64,000 nt of DNA from Pyruvatibacter sp. HU-CL02332 (GTDB lineage Bacteria > Pseudomonadota > Alphaproteobacteria > CGMCC-115125): contig NZ_BAABWK010000001.1 in assembly GCF_040362765.1 (NCBI RefSeq), forward strand, positions 734,990 through 798,989, read 5' to 3'. Position numbers and translations under genes: made by a program. Position 1 is the first letter of the stretch; each line of letters opens with the position of its first letter. This document shows, one piece after another, positions 11,728 to 17,723 of this stretch. A model generated the notes under the pieces. That model had not been told where the DNA came from. It saw only the letters and a program-made list of their open reading frames with translations, and ran no database searches.

Positions 11728-11902
11728 ACGTTTGGCGCGCGTCGCGCGTCAGTAACGGCCAGGTCACACACCCATCACAGTTTGTTGGTTGTGATGTGTA
11801 CCCACATCGCAGGGCGTTGCACTTAGTATCAGTTGCGTAACTTGGTTGATCTCGCCGCCTCTGCACCCATTTGTGCAGCCTGAGTGGCCAGGGGGAATAA
11901 CG

Positions 11903-13471
11903 ATGCAACAAATCATCAGCGCGCTTCAGGTCTCATCGGTGGCGGACATCGTAAATCTGTTTGCCGCTCTCTTCATCTTCGTAGTCGGCGCGAGCTTCAT
12001 CGTTGTCGTTGTGCTGTATGTCATTGACCGCACGCAGACAAAGCATGCCATCCGCCGGAACTACCCGGTCATCGGCCGCCTGCGCTACGTCGCTGAGGAC
12101 CTTGGCAAATACTTCCGCCAGTACTTCTTTGCAGATGACCGCGCAGAGCTGCCCTTCAATCGGGCGCAGCGCGCATGGGTGTATCGGGCCGCCAAAGGCG
12201 TCGACACGACAGTGCCCTTCGGGTCAACCCGCGCACTTGCTCATGTGGGCACCAAGATTTTCGTCAACTGCCCGTTCCCGCAACTGGGCGACGACGAAAC
12301 CCCTCCCAAGGAAATAACCGTCGGCCCCTATTGCCGCTCGCCCTATTCAACGGACAAGTTCTTCCACATTTCCGGCATGAGCTACGGTGCGATTTCCAAG
12401 CCAGCCGTTCAGGCCCTGTCGCGCGGTGCCAAGCGCGCCGGCATCTGGATGAATACCGGTGAAGGCGCTCTGTCCCCTTTCCATATTGAGGGTGGCGCAG
12501 ACATCGTTTTTCAGATTGGCACGGCGAAATATGGTGTGCGCAATGACGATGGCAGCCTGGACGACAAGAAGCTGCGCAAAGTTGCCGAACGCGACCAGGT
12601 AAAGATGTTCGAAATCAAGCTCAGTCAGGGCGCCAAGCCCGGCAAGGGCGGTATTCTGCCCGGCGAAAAAGTCAGCAAGGAAATCGCCAAGATCCGAAGC
12701 ATCAAGGCAGGACAGGATTCCATCAGCCCCAACCGCCACCCGGAAATCAATTCTGTGGGCGAGTTGCTGGATTTCGTCGCCCATGTCCGCGAAGTGACCG
12801 GCAAGCCGACAGGCATCAAGATGGTGCTTGGCGCTTATGGCTGGCTTGCGGGCTTCTGCGAAGAGATCAACCGGCGCGGCATTGAAAGCGCCCCGGACTT
12901 CATCACCCTGGACAGTGCCGATGGCGGCACGGGTGCAGCTCCCCAACCACTAATTGATTATGTCGGCCTGCAAATTCAGGAAAGTCTGCCCACGCTGGTG
13001 GATGCCCTGCTGGTGCACGGGCTGCGTGACCGCATCAAGGTCATTTCATCGGGCAAGCTGACCACGCCATCTGGCGTGGCCTGGGCGCTGTGCGCAGGCG
13101 CGGACTTCGTCACGTCTGCCCGCGGCTTCATGTTTGCGTTGGGCTGCATTCAGGCCCTTCAGTGCAACACCAATGAGTGCCCCTCCGGAGTCGCAACGCA
13201 CAAGAAACACCTGCAACGCGGCCTTGTGGCAACCGACAAGGCTGAACGCGTCTATCGCTACGCCACCACCATGCATAAGGAAGTCGGCACTGTGGCGCAC
13301 TCGTGCGGGGTTGATGATCCCCGCATGCTCAAGCGCCATCATTGTCGCATCATGGGTGCCAACAGCCGCACCATCGGCCTGCATGAAATGTATCCTCCCG
13401 GCGGCAGCTTTGCGCCGGCGGCGGAGAAGCCGGACACCCTTACGGATGGCTCGGGAATGGCAGCCCAGTAA
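11903..13471 (+). CDS. Membrane-anchored FMN-binding glutamate-synthase-like protein
   Basis: The 522-residue product begins with a hydrophobic segment (about residues 10-40), then an FMN-binding GltS central-like domain. Visible markers are SGMSYGAISKPAVQALSRGAK, NTGEGALSPFH, KLSQGAKPGKGGILPG, DSADGGTGAAP and the 3Fe-4S Cys cluster C-x5-C-x4-C in GCIQALQCNTNEC. The glutaminase domain and the C-terminal beta-helix of GltB are missing. The family (GltB2-like, YerD type) is widespread but its reaction is not established; ammonia- or electron-transfer chemistry on the FMN is inferred. An AGGGGGAA site at 11889-11897 supports the start at 11903. True GltBD is encoded at 54146-60312, so this is not the housekeeping enzyme. 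Confidence 0.85.
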   Translation: MQQIISALQVSSVADIVNLFAALFIFVVGASFIVVVVLYVIDRTQTKHAIRRNYPVIGRLRYVAEDLGKYFRQYFFADDRAELPFNRAQRAWVYRAAKGVDTTVPFGSTRALAHVGTKIFVNCPFPQLGDDETPPKEITVGPYCRSPYSTDKFFHISGMSYGAISKPAVQALSRGAKRAGIWMNTGEGALSPFHIEGGADIVFQIGTAKYGVRNDDGSLDDKKLRKVAERDQVKMFEIKLSQGAKPGKGGILPGEKVSKEIAKIRSIKAGQDSISPNRHPEINSVGELLDFVAHVREVTGKPTGIKMVLGAYGWLAGFCEEINRRGIESAPDFITLDSADGGTGAAPQPLIDYVGLQIQESLPTLVDALLVHGLRDRIKVISSGKLTTPSGVAWALCAGADFVTSARGFMFALGCIQALQCNTNECPSGVATHKKHLQRGLVATDKAERVYRYATTMHKEVGTVAHSCGVDDPRMLKRHHCRIMGANSRTIGLHEMYPPGGSFAPAAEKPDTLTDGSGMAAQ

Positions 13472-13490: not shown

Positions 13491-14384
13491 CTAAGGCATG
13501 ACGAGACGGATCTGGGGCGCTTTAGACACGTCCCAGCATTCAACTTCGATCGGCAGGGTGAACAGGTCATCGCCATCAACCTGAACCGGGTCCAGGCCCT
13601 GACCATCCGCAGGACGAATGGTGATGGCATTACTCGTCAGCACATTCACACCCGGCATTTTTTCCAGGCGGCCGAGCGCCAGACCAAGCAGAGCAAGCAC
13701 AAGCGATGCGCGGTTGCGAGCTGAAACACACAGAGTTTTCAAACCCACGGCATCAAACCGGGCTGATGGCGCAAGACTATACGCCCCCGCATAATGCTCA
13801 GCGTTCGCGACAACGGCCCATCCACAGTCAAACGACTGGATGCCATCGCTCACCTCAAGGCGTGGTCCTGATTTCCCGAACACCTGCTTGATTCCAGCCC
13901 AGACAAAAGCCAGCTTTCCGAATCTGCGTTTCATGGCCGGGTCGATGGCATGGACCAGTCTCCCGTCAAATCCGGCACCGACCCACAACAGGAAGAACCG
14001 CTTGTTGACGCGCCCTGCACCAATCTGCCGCGGCTGGCCGTTTAGAAGCAAAGCTCCCAATGCATCGCTCGTGCGCGGAAGACCGATTTCGATGGCCAGT
14101 ACATTCGCAGTCCCGGTGGGGATAACCCCAAGCGGCACTTCGCTGCCGGCAAGCCCGTTAGCAACTTCGTTGATCGTGCCGTCGCCACCTGCAGCAACCA
14201 CAATCTCGGCAGACCCATCAAGGGCCGCCTCACGCGCAAACAGTTCCGCATCACCGGGTCCTGTTGTCTCACGCAATGTAACCGTCGCGCCTTCGCGGTT
14301 CATTGCCTCTACAACATCAATCAATTTGCGCCTTCTGCGCCACCCCGCCGTTGGGTTGTAGATGACCGTTACCGCCCGCCGCAT
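13491..14384 (-). CDS. Diacylglycerol/lipid kinase (DAGK catalytic domain)
   Basis: The product of about 297 residues starts MRRAVTVIYNPTAG. It has the nucleotide-binding GGDGTINEVANGL and GVIPTGTANVLA motifs of the YegS/DgkB family, and a C-terminal half with VDGDDLFTLPIEVEC. The family phosphorylates diacylglycerol, sphingosine or undecaprenol-like lipids at the inner membrane face. A GTG at 14447 would extend it by 21 residues, but that region is Asn/Ala-rich and would place the start inside the Pho half-sites; no clear ribosome-binding site decides. It is divergent from plcP-agt, which suggests a role in recycling the diacylglycerol that PlcP releases. That role is inference. Confidence 0.85.
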   Translation of the reverse strand: MRRAVTVIYNPTAGWRRRRKLIDVVEAMNREGATVTLRETTGPGDAELFAREAALDGSAEIVVAAGGDGTINEVANGLAGSEVPLGVIPTGTANVLAIEIGLPRTSDALGALLLNGQPRQIGAGRVNKRFFLLWVGAGFDGRLVHAIDPAMKRRFGKLAFVWAGIKQVFGKSGPRLEVSDGIQSFDCGWAVVANAEHYAGAYSLAPSARFDAVGLKTLCVSARNRASLVLALLGLALGRLEKMPGVNVLTSNAITIRPADGQGLDPVQVDGDDLFTLPIEVECWDVSKAPQIRLVMP

Positions 14385-14440
14385 GGCAGGAGGCGGGGCA
14401 TTGTGGTTACCGGCGGTGCCTGCATTATCCGCGTACAAAT

Positions 14441-14469
14441 GGTTCACCTCAGCGTCACAAAACGTTCAT
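14441..14469 (+). promoter_or_regulatory. Three Pho-box half-sites at 11-bp spacing (putative PhoB site)
   Basis: TTCAC (14443-14447), GTCAC (14454-14458) and TTCAT (14465-14469) recur every 11 bp. The last two are separated by an AAAA-type spacer, as in the canonical TGTCA-type Pho box. GATAGT at 14480-14485, 10 nt downstream, is placed like a -10 element. The region lies between the lipid kinase and plcP, consistent with phosphate-starvation control of plcP-agt. Confidence 0.6.
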
Positions 14470-14601
14470 TCCCTGTCGGGATAGTCCCGCCAGATCACAG
14501 GCGGACACGCTTGATTCGATTGGTATTTTCAGCGCCGGACACAGTCGTGACGGCAAACACCAAAAAGATCAAGTACTCCGTATACGAATTATAAAACGCT
14601 T

Positions 14602-15762
14602 ATGCGTTTTGATGTTTGGCCCTTGGTACTTGCGGTTCCCATGACACTTACCGGCATGCTGACACGCACATCCGACAACCCGATTGTTGCCACGGCAAAA
14701 TCAGCCGGCAAGGCACTCCGGGCAAAACCCTTCCGGGACAGGCTTGCCCTGTTTGGACTACGCGCCCGCGGGCGAAAAAGGGTGAAGCGCAAGCATCTGA
14801 TCGTGCGCGAGCCTGTACACCACCGCACCCTTTTTATTTCCGATACACATCTGGGCACACCGGGCTGCAAGGCAGAACTGCTGGCGGATTTCCTGCGTCA
14901 CAATGAGGCCGACACACTCTACCTTGTGGGCGATATCATCGACGGCTGGCGCATCAAGCGGTCGTGGTACTGGAACGACGCCCACAATCAGGTCATTCAG
15001 GAAATACTGCGCAAAGCCCGGAAGGGCACACGGGTCATCTACGTACCCGGCAATCACGATGAAGCCCTGCGTGACTATATCGGCGTCACGCTGGCAGGTG
15101 TGGAAGTCATCAATGAGGACATCCACCGCGCTGCCGACGGAAAATCCTATCTGGTGCTGCATGGTGACCAGTTTGACGGGGTGGTGCGATACGCCAAATG
15201 GCTCGCCCATGTGGGTGACTGGGCCTACAACTTTGCCCTGGCCGCATCAGGGATGCTTCACAACATCCGCCGGACATTCGGGCTGTCTTACTGGTCGCTC
15301 TCTGCCTACCTGAAGCACAAGGTCAAAAACGCCGTCGAGTACATCTCGAACTACGAAGAAGCCGTGGCCCGCGAAGCGCGCGACCGCGGCGTGGACGGCG
15401 TAGTCTGCGGCCACATCCACCACGCTGAGGTGCGGGACATGGATGGCGTCACCTACATGAATGACGGTGACTGGGTCGAAAGCTGCACGGCGCTTGCCGA
15501 AGACATGACCGGTAATTTCACCATTCTGCACTGGACACGATTTGCGGCAGATGTGGACGCCGAGAAGGCTGAACACGAAAAGGCTCTGGGCTTCCTTCCT
15601 GCACCAGACCAGCCAGACGCAACACCCGCACACGAAGCATCACCTTCTTCCGAAGCCGAAGACGACCTCGACGAAGAGGTCGTCATAGATGGCAGCATTC
15701 CTGTCGCTGCACGCGACGAGGCTCCGCAAAAAACCATAAACCTAGCAAGCAGCGCAGCGTGA
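14602..15762 (+). CDS. plcP: PlcP-type phospholipase C (LpxH-like metallophosphoesterase)
   Basis: The 386-residue product has the calcineurin-like metal ligands in order: SDTHLG (about residue 81), GDIIDGW (about 112), GNHDE (about 151), HGDQFDG (about 190) and GHIHHAE (about 272). This is the COG2908 branch. In marine alphaproteobacteria and Sinorhizobium, the member next to a GT4 gene is PlcP, which cleaves phospholipid headgroups during phosphate limitation to give diacylglycerol. The immediate overlap with the agt-like gene supports PlcP over LpxH. The first 70 residues are basic and the last 80 are acidic/Pro-rich, making it longer than the usual protein of about 270-300 residues. The start codon is uncertain; later ATGs exist at 14641 and 14656. 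Confidence 0.8.
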   Translation: MRFDVWPLVLAVPMTLTGMLTRTSDNPIVATAKSAGKALRAKPFRDRLALFGLRARGRKRVKRKHLIVREPVHHRTLFISDTHLGTPGCKAELLADFLRHNEADTLYLVGDIIDGWRIKRSWYWNDAHNQVIQEILRKARKGTRVIYVPGNHDEALRDYIGVTLAGVEVINEDIHRAADGKSYLVLHGDQFDGVVRYAKWLAHVGDWAYNFALAASGMLHNIRRTFGLSYWSLSAYLKHKVKNAVEYISNYEEAVAREARDRGVDGVVCGHIHHAEVRDMDGVTYMNDGDWVESCTALAEDMTGNFTILHWTRFAADVDAEKAEHEKALGFLPAPDQPDATPAHEASPSSEAEDDLDEEVVIDGSIPVAARDEAPQKTINLASSAA

Positions 15763-16919
15763 CACACACCCAAACGTCGACCTCCGCCCTATCCGCCAGT
15801 CAAGCAACATCAACAACCCCCGTTGCTCATCCCGGTGGATTGCAGTTCAGCGAACCTGGCCAGCCCCTGCGCGTCCTGATTGTCACGGACGCATGGGAGC
15901 CGCAGGTCAATGGCGTCGTTCGCACATTGCAGCAGCTCGGCACTCAACTGGGCAAGATGGGGCACCAGGTACGCTATGTGACGCCCCTTGATTTCAAGAC
16001 CATTCCAGCGCCGACCTATCCGGAAATCAGACTTGCGCTCTGGCCATTGCGCTGGATGGCGAAAGTCGTACGAGAGTTTGCGCCTTGCGCGATCCACATC
16101 GCGACAGAGGGACCGCTCGGTCTGGCGGCGCGCAATTACTGTGTACGCAACGGGCTGCCATTCTCAACGTCGTTCCACACGCGCTTCCCCGAATACATAA
16201 ACGCCCGCTTCGGCACGCCTGTCGCCTGGGGCTATCGCTTTTTGCGCTGGTTCCATGGTCCGGCCACCACAATGATGGTCGCCACAAAGTCACTGCAGGA
16301 AGAGATGGCCGAGCGAAAATTTCCATCGACAGCCATCTGGTCACGCGGGGTGGACATTGATGTGTACAAACCCCGCCCTGATCTCAAGGAGAGTGCCTTT
16401 CTCAATCTCCCGCGTCCTTTGTGGCTGTATGTGGGCCGCGTGGCAGTTGAGAAAAACATAGAAGCTTTCCTGAAACTGGACCTGCCGGGAACAAAGCTTG
16501 TTGTGGGAGGTGGCCCGCAGCTGGACAGCCTCAGGCAAAAATACACCGACGTGCATTTTGTTGGCCCGAAGTTCGGTGAAGAGCTGGCCGAGCATTACGC
16601 TGCCAGTGACTGCTTCGTGTTTCCCAGCAAGACCGACACATTTGGCCTTGTCACCCTTGAGGCGCTCGCATCAGGTACGCCGGTCGCCGCTTACCCGGTT
16701 CAGGGACCAAAGGATGTGATTGGCGATGCACCTGTGGGGTGCCTGCGCGAAGACCTGCGCAGCGCCGCACTTACTGCTGTCAAAATCTCACCCGATCGCG
16801 CCCGCGCTTTCGCACTTGGTTACTCCTGGGAAGCCTGCACAAACCAGTTCATCAGCAATCTGGCAATCCAGCGACAGCCAGGGGTTGAGGGCAGCCGACC
16901 ACGTCTTCTCAGGCGCTAA
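15759..16919 (+). CDS. agt: Family 4 glycosyltransferase, Agt-like glycolipid synthase
   Basis: The 386-residue product starts at a GTG that overlaps the plcP stop by 4 nt, so translation is coupled. It has an N-terminal Rossmann half with DAWEPQVNGVVRTL, THxRxPEY-like STSFHTRFPEY, then the GT-B donor half with LYVGRVAVEKNIEAFL, VVGGGPQLDSL and the E-x7-E motif in SKTDTFGLVTLEALASGTPV. This resembles SQD2/MgtA and the Agt enzymes that add glucose or glucuronate to diacylglycerol, making phosphorus-free glycolipids. Together with PlcP it forms the known two-step replacement of phospholipids by glycolipids. Sugar specificity cannot be read from the sequence. Confidence 0.8.
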   Translation: MTHTQTSTSALSASQATSTTPVAHPGGLQFSEPGQPLRVLIVTDAWEPQVNGVVRTLQQLGTQLGKMGHQVRYVTPLDFKTIPAPTYPEIRLALWPLRWMAKVVREFAPCAIHIATEGPLGLAARNYCVRNGLPFSTSFHTRFPEYINARFGTPVAWGYRFLRWFHGPATTMMVATKSLQEEMAERKFPSTAIWSRGVDIDVYKPRPDLKESAFLNLPRPLWLYVGRVAVEKNIEAFLKLDLPGTKLVVGGGPQLDSLRQKYTDVHFVGPKFGEELAEHYAASDCFVFPSKTDTFGLVTLEALASGTPVAAYPVQGPKDVIGDAPVGCLREDLRSAALTAVKISPDRARAFALGYSWEACTNQFISNLAIQRQPGVEGSRPRLLRR

Positions 16920-17048
16920 GCCGTATTCTCCCAAAGCTGCTCACATTTGCGTTAGTGAACCACCGCCCTCTCCCGGTTTCACTGGTAACCGACCGCAAGC
17001 ATGTTAGGCTTTGCGGGAAAGTTGTGTTGCATACAGGGAGTTCAACGC

Positions 17049-17723
17049 ATGTCTCATCATCATCGTTCCAAGGCCCGCGCCAAAGCTGCGGAGCAGGACA
17101 CACAATCCACCCGCCTGTTTCTGCTGGTAACCGGCGCCCTCGCCGCCATTGCTCTTGTCTGGGCAGCCTTCTCGACGGTTGCACTGGCAGAAGATGCACC
17201 AGCGGCTGAAAGCGGCACATTCGCCATCGACGAAAGCCACGTGCACGCTGCCTTCAAAGTCAGCCATCTGGGCTTTTCTGAAACCATTGGCGGTTTCGAC
17301 AAGATTTCCGGCAGCTTCACGCTTGATGCAGAAAACCTGTCTGCCAGCTCTGTGAGCGTCACAATTGATACCGCCAGCGTGGATTCAGGCTGGGACGCCC
17401 GCGACGAACATCTGCGCGGCGACGACTTCTTCAAGGTGGAAGAGTTTCCGGACATGACGTTCGCGTCCACAAGTGTCGAGCCAACCGGTGACACGACTGC
17501 AAAAGTCACCGGTGACCTGACAATGCTGGGTCAGACCCACCCGGTGACCCTGGATGTCACCTTCAATCAGGCCGGGAAACACCCGTTCTCAGGCAAATAT
17601 GTGGCGGGTTTCTCAGCTACGGGCACACTGGATCGCACCCAGTGGGGCATGGAGTACGGCGTGCCGGCCATCGGCAAGGATATTGACCTGATGATTCAGG
17701 CCGAAGGCGTTCGCGCCGAGTAG
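17049..17723 (+). CDS. YceI family protein with N-terminal membrane segment
   Basis: The 224-residue product has a basic His/Arg-rich N-terminus, a hydrophobic helix (about residues 20-45, ending in TVALAEDAPAAE) that is a signal peptide or anchor, then a YceI lipocalin-like barrel. Barrel markers are FAIDESHVHAAFKVSHLGF, GGFDKISGSF, DARDEHLRGDDFF, TGDLTMLGQTHPVTLDVTF and the C-terminal MEYGVPAIGKDIDLMIQAEG. YceI proteins bind long isoprenoid lipids such as polyprenyl quinones in the periplasm; physiological roles vary. CAGGGAG at 17034-17040 fixes the ATG at 17049 over an upstream ATG at 17001. Confidence 0.88.
   Translation: MSHHHRSKARAKAAEQDTQSTRLFLLVTGALAAIALVWAAFSTVALAEDAPAAESGTFAIDESHVHAAFKVSHLGFSETIGGFDKISGSFTLDAENLSASSVSVTIDTASVDSGWDARDEHLRGDDFFKVEEFPDMTFASTSVEPTGDTTAKVTGDLTMLGQTHPVTLDVTFNQAGKHPFSGKYVAGFSATGTLDRTQWGMEYGVPAIGKDIDLMIQAEGVRAE

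Follow-up and report, generated by a model that had tools for sequence, protein, structure and literature searches.

The plcP and agt genes in the window (the whole stretch of DNA analysed, 64,000 nucleotides) most probably form an operon activated by PhoB, a reading to which we assign a probability of about 90%. It is supported by the anatomy of the DNA, its conservation and near-uniqueness, a complete Pho system in the same genome, the families of the encoded proteins and their catalytic motifs. The sequence-only reading had proposed a PhoB-controlled lipid-remodelling arrangement at this place, and the tests of motif, family, conservation and genome context are all consistent with published plcP-agt systems. 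The Pho switch of plcP-agt is essentially known; the less familiar part is the arrangement with a diacylglycerol kinase gene, which proved to recur at this locus as its third gene.

Direct reading of the sequence identified TTCAC (14443-14447), GTCAC (14454-14458) and TTCAT (14465-14469) with a period of exactly 11, followed after 10 nt (14470-14479) by GATAGT (14480-14485, plus strand), a candidate -10 element; both the recurrence and the hexamer had been described beforehand and are present as stated. Written as 7-mers, the plus-strand array spans 14441-14469 as GGTTCAC/GCGTCAC/CGTTCAT with exact 11-bp spacing, and thus contains the two or more CTGTCAT-like 7-bp direct repeats at 11-bp spacing that define a Pho box, with the -10 element about 10 nt past the last repeat that is typical of a Pho promoter. 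The half-sites are degenerate, two of them carrying T instead of G at position 3. On a scale on which CTGTCAT scores 9.1 bits, half-site 1 (GGTTCAC, 14441-14447) is the weakest with 4.2 bits, and half-sites 2 (GCGTCAC, 14452-14458) and 3 (CGTTCAT, 14463-14469) score 6.7 and 6.0 bits, respectively. The E. coli phoA promoter shares the 11-bp period of the direct repeats and the 10-nt gap ahead of the -10 element (TATAGT there, GATAGT here), but it has two near-consensus half-sites instead of three degenerate ones. Among 66 boxes, -10-like hexamers were found at offset 10 in 15%, compared to typical values of 2-5%, and a second, unexplained peak was seen at offset 23 (14%). CTGTC at 14473 was considered as a fourth half-site and rejected, since it is out of register and the surrounding 7-mer CCTGTCG scores -13.

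A scan of the 64-kb window alone, allowing three mismatches, was not significant (3 matches versus 1.3 expected), so that the exact pattern in the whole genome and its conservation had to be considered. KTCAY-N6-KTCAY-N6-KTCAY has a single exact match in the genome of 3,445,148 bases and none on the other strand, and the reversed-pattern control gave no match in this genome. All three congeners searched carry the triple pattern once at the orthologous place. One congener alone contains an unrelated second triple half-site, GTCACGGAATGGTCACGGAACCTTCAC, at G002:C1:734966-734992 (L038). In the alignment of the intergenic regions of four congeners the best-conserved 30-mers start at 14431-14441, with 90% invariant columns versus 48% overall, and GGGATAGTCC, which includes GATAGT, is invariant. 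The plcP leader contains a second conserved untranslated block, AAATCAAGT.CTCCGTA.ACGAATT (14572-14591, plus strand), between promoter and start codon; it is 65% invariant, whereas the directly adjoining sequence reaches about 30% on its upstream and 5% on its downstream side, and it is not a Pho box. The two-repeat pattern TGTCA-N6-TGTCA, with one mismatch, occurs 199 times genome-wide versus 55 times in the reversed control; the few top loci inspected have low scores in the matrix described below.

A first motif search returned conserved coding sequence of the kinase rather than a regulatory motif; the coding part was therefore trimmed before the search was rerun. The Pho-box matrix was then obtained by EM on 44 kinase-plcP intergenic regions, all from other genera, with the consensus ttgTCATaaAACTGTCAC, and runs with random seeds on kinase-plcP intergenic regions recovered the Pho box de novo on both strands. 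Scoring with an alphaproteobacterial matrix had been suggested as a check of the sequence-only reading, and the matrix from other genera ranked 14452-14469 first over both strands of the entire window (15.8 bits, next 12.8 bits). For comparison, the E. coli phoA box scores 16.4 bits with a uniform background, and the pstS box of the same genome (CTGTCACTGAACCGTCAT, L059:6118), located 242 bp before the pstS start, scores 20.1 bits. This box belongs to a phoR-pstS-pstC-pstA-pstB-phoU-phoB locus (L059, genes read from translations), and PhoB reaches 361 bits against TIGR02154 (cut-off 296), showing that both PhoB and PhoR are encoded in the genome. In one congener the pstS array has up to four repeats. 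No Pho box of at least 10.5 bits was found near the second DAGK_cat gene of the genome (G000:C1:996347-996748, L260) or near its PF13444 (OlsB-type) gene.

The first gene downstream of the array, plcP (14641-15762, plus strand), encodes a PlcP-type metallophosphoesterase (PF00149, 2.8e-13). A longer reading frame begins at ATG 14602, but the start is probably ATG 14641 (MTLTG...), which is common to all four congeners. The motifs DTH, GDIID, GNHDE, HGD and GHIH are intact and invariant or nearly so in 15 homologues. The protein resembles LpxH weakly (29% identity to the E. coli enzyme over 121 aa), which could be taken to mean that it is a lipid A enzyme and the Pho box a coincidence. This is extremely improbable: it misses both NCBIfam equivalog cut-offs for LpxH (48.9 bits where 134 are required, and 44.4 where 190 are), it is 58% and 61% identical to the PlcP proteins of Rhizobium and Methylocystis, respectively, its gene is coupled to agt, and LpxI, encoded elsewhere in the genome, fills the LpxH step. 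On the cut-offs, the presence of LpxI and the identity comparison we rejected LpxH and retained the assignment to PlcP.

In each of the four congeners the end of plcP and the GTG start of agt (15759-16919, plus strand) share 4 nt (GTGA), in line with the proposed translational coupling of plcP to a GT4 glycosyltransferase gene (PF13439 1.9e-19, PF00534 2.1e-18). In the 84 plcP loci sampled from 42 families, agt follows plcP in 79. For the related GTcp of Pelagibacter, enzyme activity and essential His, Asp, Arg and Trp residues have been reported (PMC8231724). Agt carries the GTcp motifs GRVAxEKN and FPSxTDTFG (here GRVAVEKN and FPSKTDTFG) together with SFHT, WSRGVD and YSWE, and the essential residues are matched, including the His/Asp dyad and the Arg and Trp that contact diacylglycerol. 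The sugar donor is not readable from the sequence and is predicted to be UDP-glucose, UDP-galactose or UDP-glucuronate. The association of the YceI-family gene after agt (17034-17723) with the lipid genes is confined to this genus and its sister family f9.

Divergent from plcP lies a gene for a YegS/DgkB-type diacylglycerol (lipid) kinase (13491-14447, minus strand; PF00781 4.6e-29, YegS_C 7e-13), which matches DgkB in the PDB with 4.8e-22. Like the YegS/DgkB kinases (PDB 2qv7, 2bon) it combines DAGK_cat and YegS_C domains with the GGDGT motif; it differs from them in falling below the NCBIfam subfamily cut-offs (105.8 bits versus 118.65 for TIGR00147), placing it in the same superfamily outside the curated score. 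Its start is probably GTG 14447, a codon that reads GTG/GTG/ATG/GTG in the four congeners, with no frame-breaking indel between 14447 and 14384 in any of them. The in-frame ATG at 14384 is a possible alternative and is CTG in congener G001. No clear Shine-Dalgarno sequence precedes either codon and no kinase promoter was located, so that both starts are candidates. The probable GTG start falls inside the first half-site. Like the YceI-family gene, the glutamate-synthase-domain gene (11846-13471) adjoining the kinase has stayed with the lipid genes in this genus and in f9 alone.

Across the 84 Alphaproteobacteria loci the kinase precedes plcP in 48 (28 of the 42 families) and is divergent every time. 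The next neighbour, a glutamate-synthase-like gene, is common to only two families, so the link with the kinase is more than general synteny. Both genes are present in 63 of 289 genomes of the class, the kinase only in 19, PlcP only in 47 and neither in 160 (odds ratio 11, p = 2e-17, without correction for phylogeny), and they are adjacent in 50 of the 63 genomes carrying both. A set of named genomes has the kinase at 20 of 80 plcP loci, again always divergent. Carini and colleagues are said to have described a four-gene cluster from SAR11 in 2015, which may include the kinase. At a cut-off of 10.5 bits, Pho boxes in the 48 kinase-plcP regions face plcP in 26, the kinase in 29, both in 10 and neither in 3, against about 4-7% in controls. 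Since most of the same regions had served to train the matrix, there is some circularity in these rates. The named set, in which some records overlap, shows the same pattern, with a Pho box at 14 of the 20 kinase loci (control 2.5%). In the intergenic regions L134, L135, L136, L137, L141 and L096, from several families, the plcP-facing and kinase-facing boxes point toward each other, and the two 5' ends may thus overlap. The kinase is therefore no chance neighbour. The earlier suggestion was that the extra third half-site may raise PhoB affinity or serve the divergent kinase; in most relatives the kinase has a kinase-facing box of its own, which is absent from this genus, where only the plcP-facing array was detected at 10.5 bits or more.

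At least three half-sites in register were found in 15 of 45 regions, five facing plcP and ten facing the kinase, compared to 0.1 in shuffles. In other lineages third half-sites in register are over-represented beside Pho boxes, both upstream (p = 3e-9) and downstream (p = 5e-4). Since the third half-site is common at the plcP locus in other families, it is no distinctive device, and complex operators with varying repeat numbers are known (PMC4415409). That the extra half-site alters PhoB affinity is a fair guess. It could also be argued that half-site 1, the weakest of the three, coincides with the conserved GTG/ATG of the kinase and is retained solely through this overlap, unused by PhoB. 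We consider this rather unlikely: the over-representation elsewhere speaks against it, as does the sister family, where L096 has GTCTCAT at the aligned place and, as read by eye, a stop in the kinase frame downstream of it.

PhoB binding, induction and the substrates of the enzymes at plcP-agt are predicted as follows. Under low phosphate, phosphorylated PhoB would bind head-to-tail along the array of 11-bp repeats (14441-14469), stand in for the missing -35 contact and bring RNA polymerase to GATAGT, so that plcP and agt would be expressed as a translationally coupled pair. PlcP would strip the phosphate-bearing head groups off membrane phospholipids, and Agt would glycosylate the released diacylglycerol using one of the three candidate UDP-sugars. 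The divergent kinase probably turns surplus diacylglycerol back into phosphatidic acid.

How PhoB might affect the kinase can be read in two ways. PhoB may activate the kinase from the same region, which would allow diacylglycerol to be returned to phosphatidic acid while lipids are remodelled or the cell recovers. The always divergent adjacency in 28 of 42 families, the co-occurrence (uncorrected for phylogeny), the kinase-facing boxes and the PHO-dependent increase of DagK together with PlcP in Pseudomonas (PMC5082522) favour this, whereas this genus has no kinase-facing box of at least 10.5 bits; we regard it as plausible at somewhat less than even odds. Conversely, the array covers the probable start codon of the kinase, and PhoB could repress the kinase there: a single array would have opposite effects, activating plcP-agt and blocking kinase transcription over the start codon, downstream of the kinase promoter, so that diacylglycerol would be reserved for Agt and not rephosphorylated. 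The position of half-site 1 and the restriction of this genus to a plcP-facing array, compared to kinase-facing boxes at 29 of 48 kinase loci elsewhere, are consistent with such a block. The unlocated promoter, the uncertain start and the Pseudomonas DagK data argue against it, and the opposite-facing boxes of other lineages suggest co-activation, making the block doubtful. Broader still, and less likely than either, kinase and plcP-agt might constitute a three-gene switch routing diacylglycerol throughout the Alphaproteobacteria, with the orientation of the PhoB array setting co-induction of the kinase in most lineages or, where an activating array lies over the kinase start as in this genus, its shut-off.

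plcP-agt with upstream Pho boxes has been published for marine bacteria (PMC4796936), and a second paper reports plcP-agt in methanotrophs and loss of the glycolipid GADG upon deletion of plcP-agt (PMC9239053). The systems of Pelagibacter HTCC7211, Erythrobacter NAP1 and Methylosinus trichosporium OB3b resemble the present one in gene order, operon-like layout and PlcP/Agt families (PMC4796936, PMC9239053); an upstream Pho box is common to the marine isolates and this locus (PMC4796936), and the difference here is that three tandem half-sites are resolved. The portions of the open-access literature searched held no discussion of a divergent kinase with plcP-agt, an absence that is no proof of novelty. 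A phosphate-related genomic island of HIMB59 carries a diacylglycerol kinase, 'LpxH' and 'RfaG'/glycosyltransferase beside pst-phoRB, and the authors saw no direct function in phosphorus metabolism for its kinase and glycosyltransferase (PMC10734472). Likened by annotation, this trio is plausibly the same three genes under other names.

The array thus appears to be one further well-supported alphaproteobacterial Pho promoter. Diacylglycerol released by PlcP has two fates: when it is glycosylated phosphate is saved, and when it is rephosphorylated phospholipid is restored. A kinase gene regularly placed back to back with plcP-agt, with a common Pho control region, is the obvious candidate for setting this branch point.
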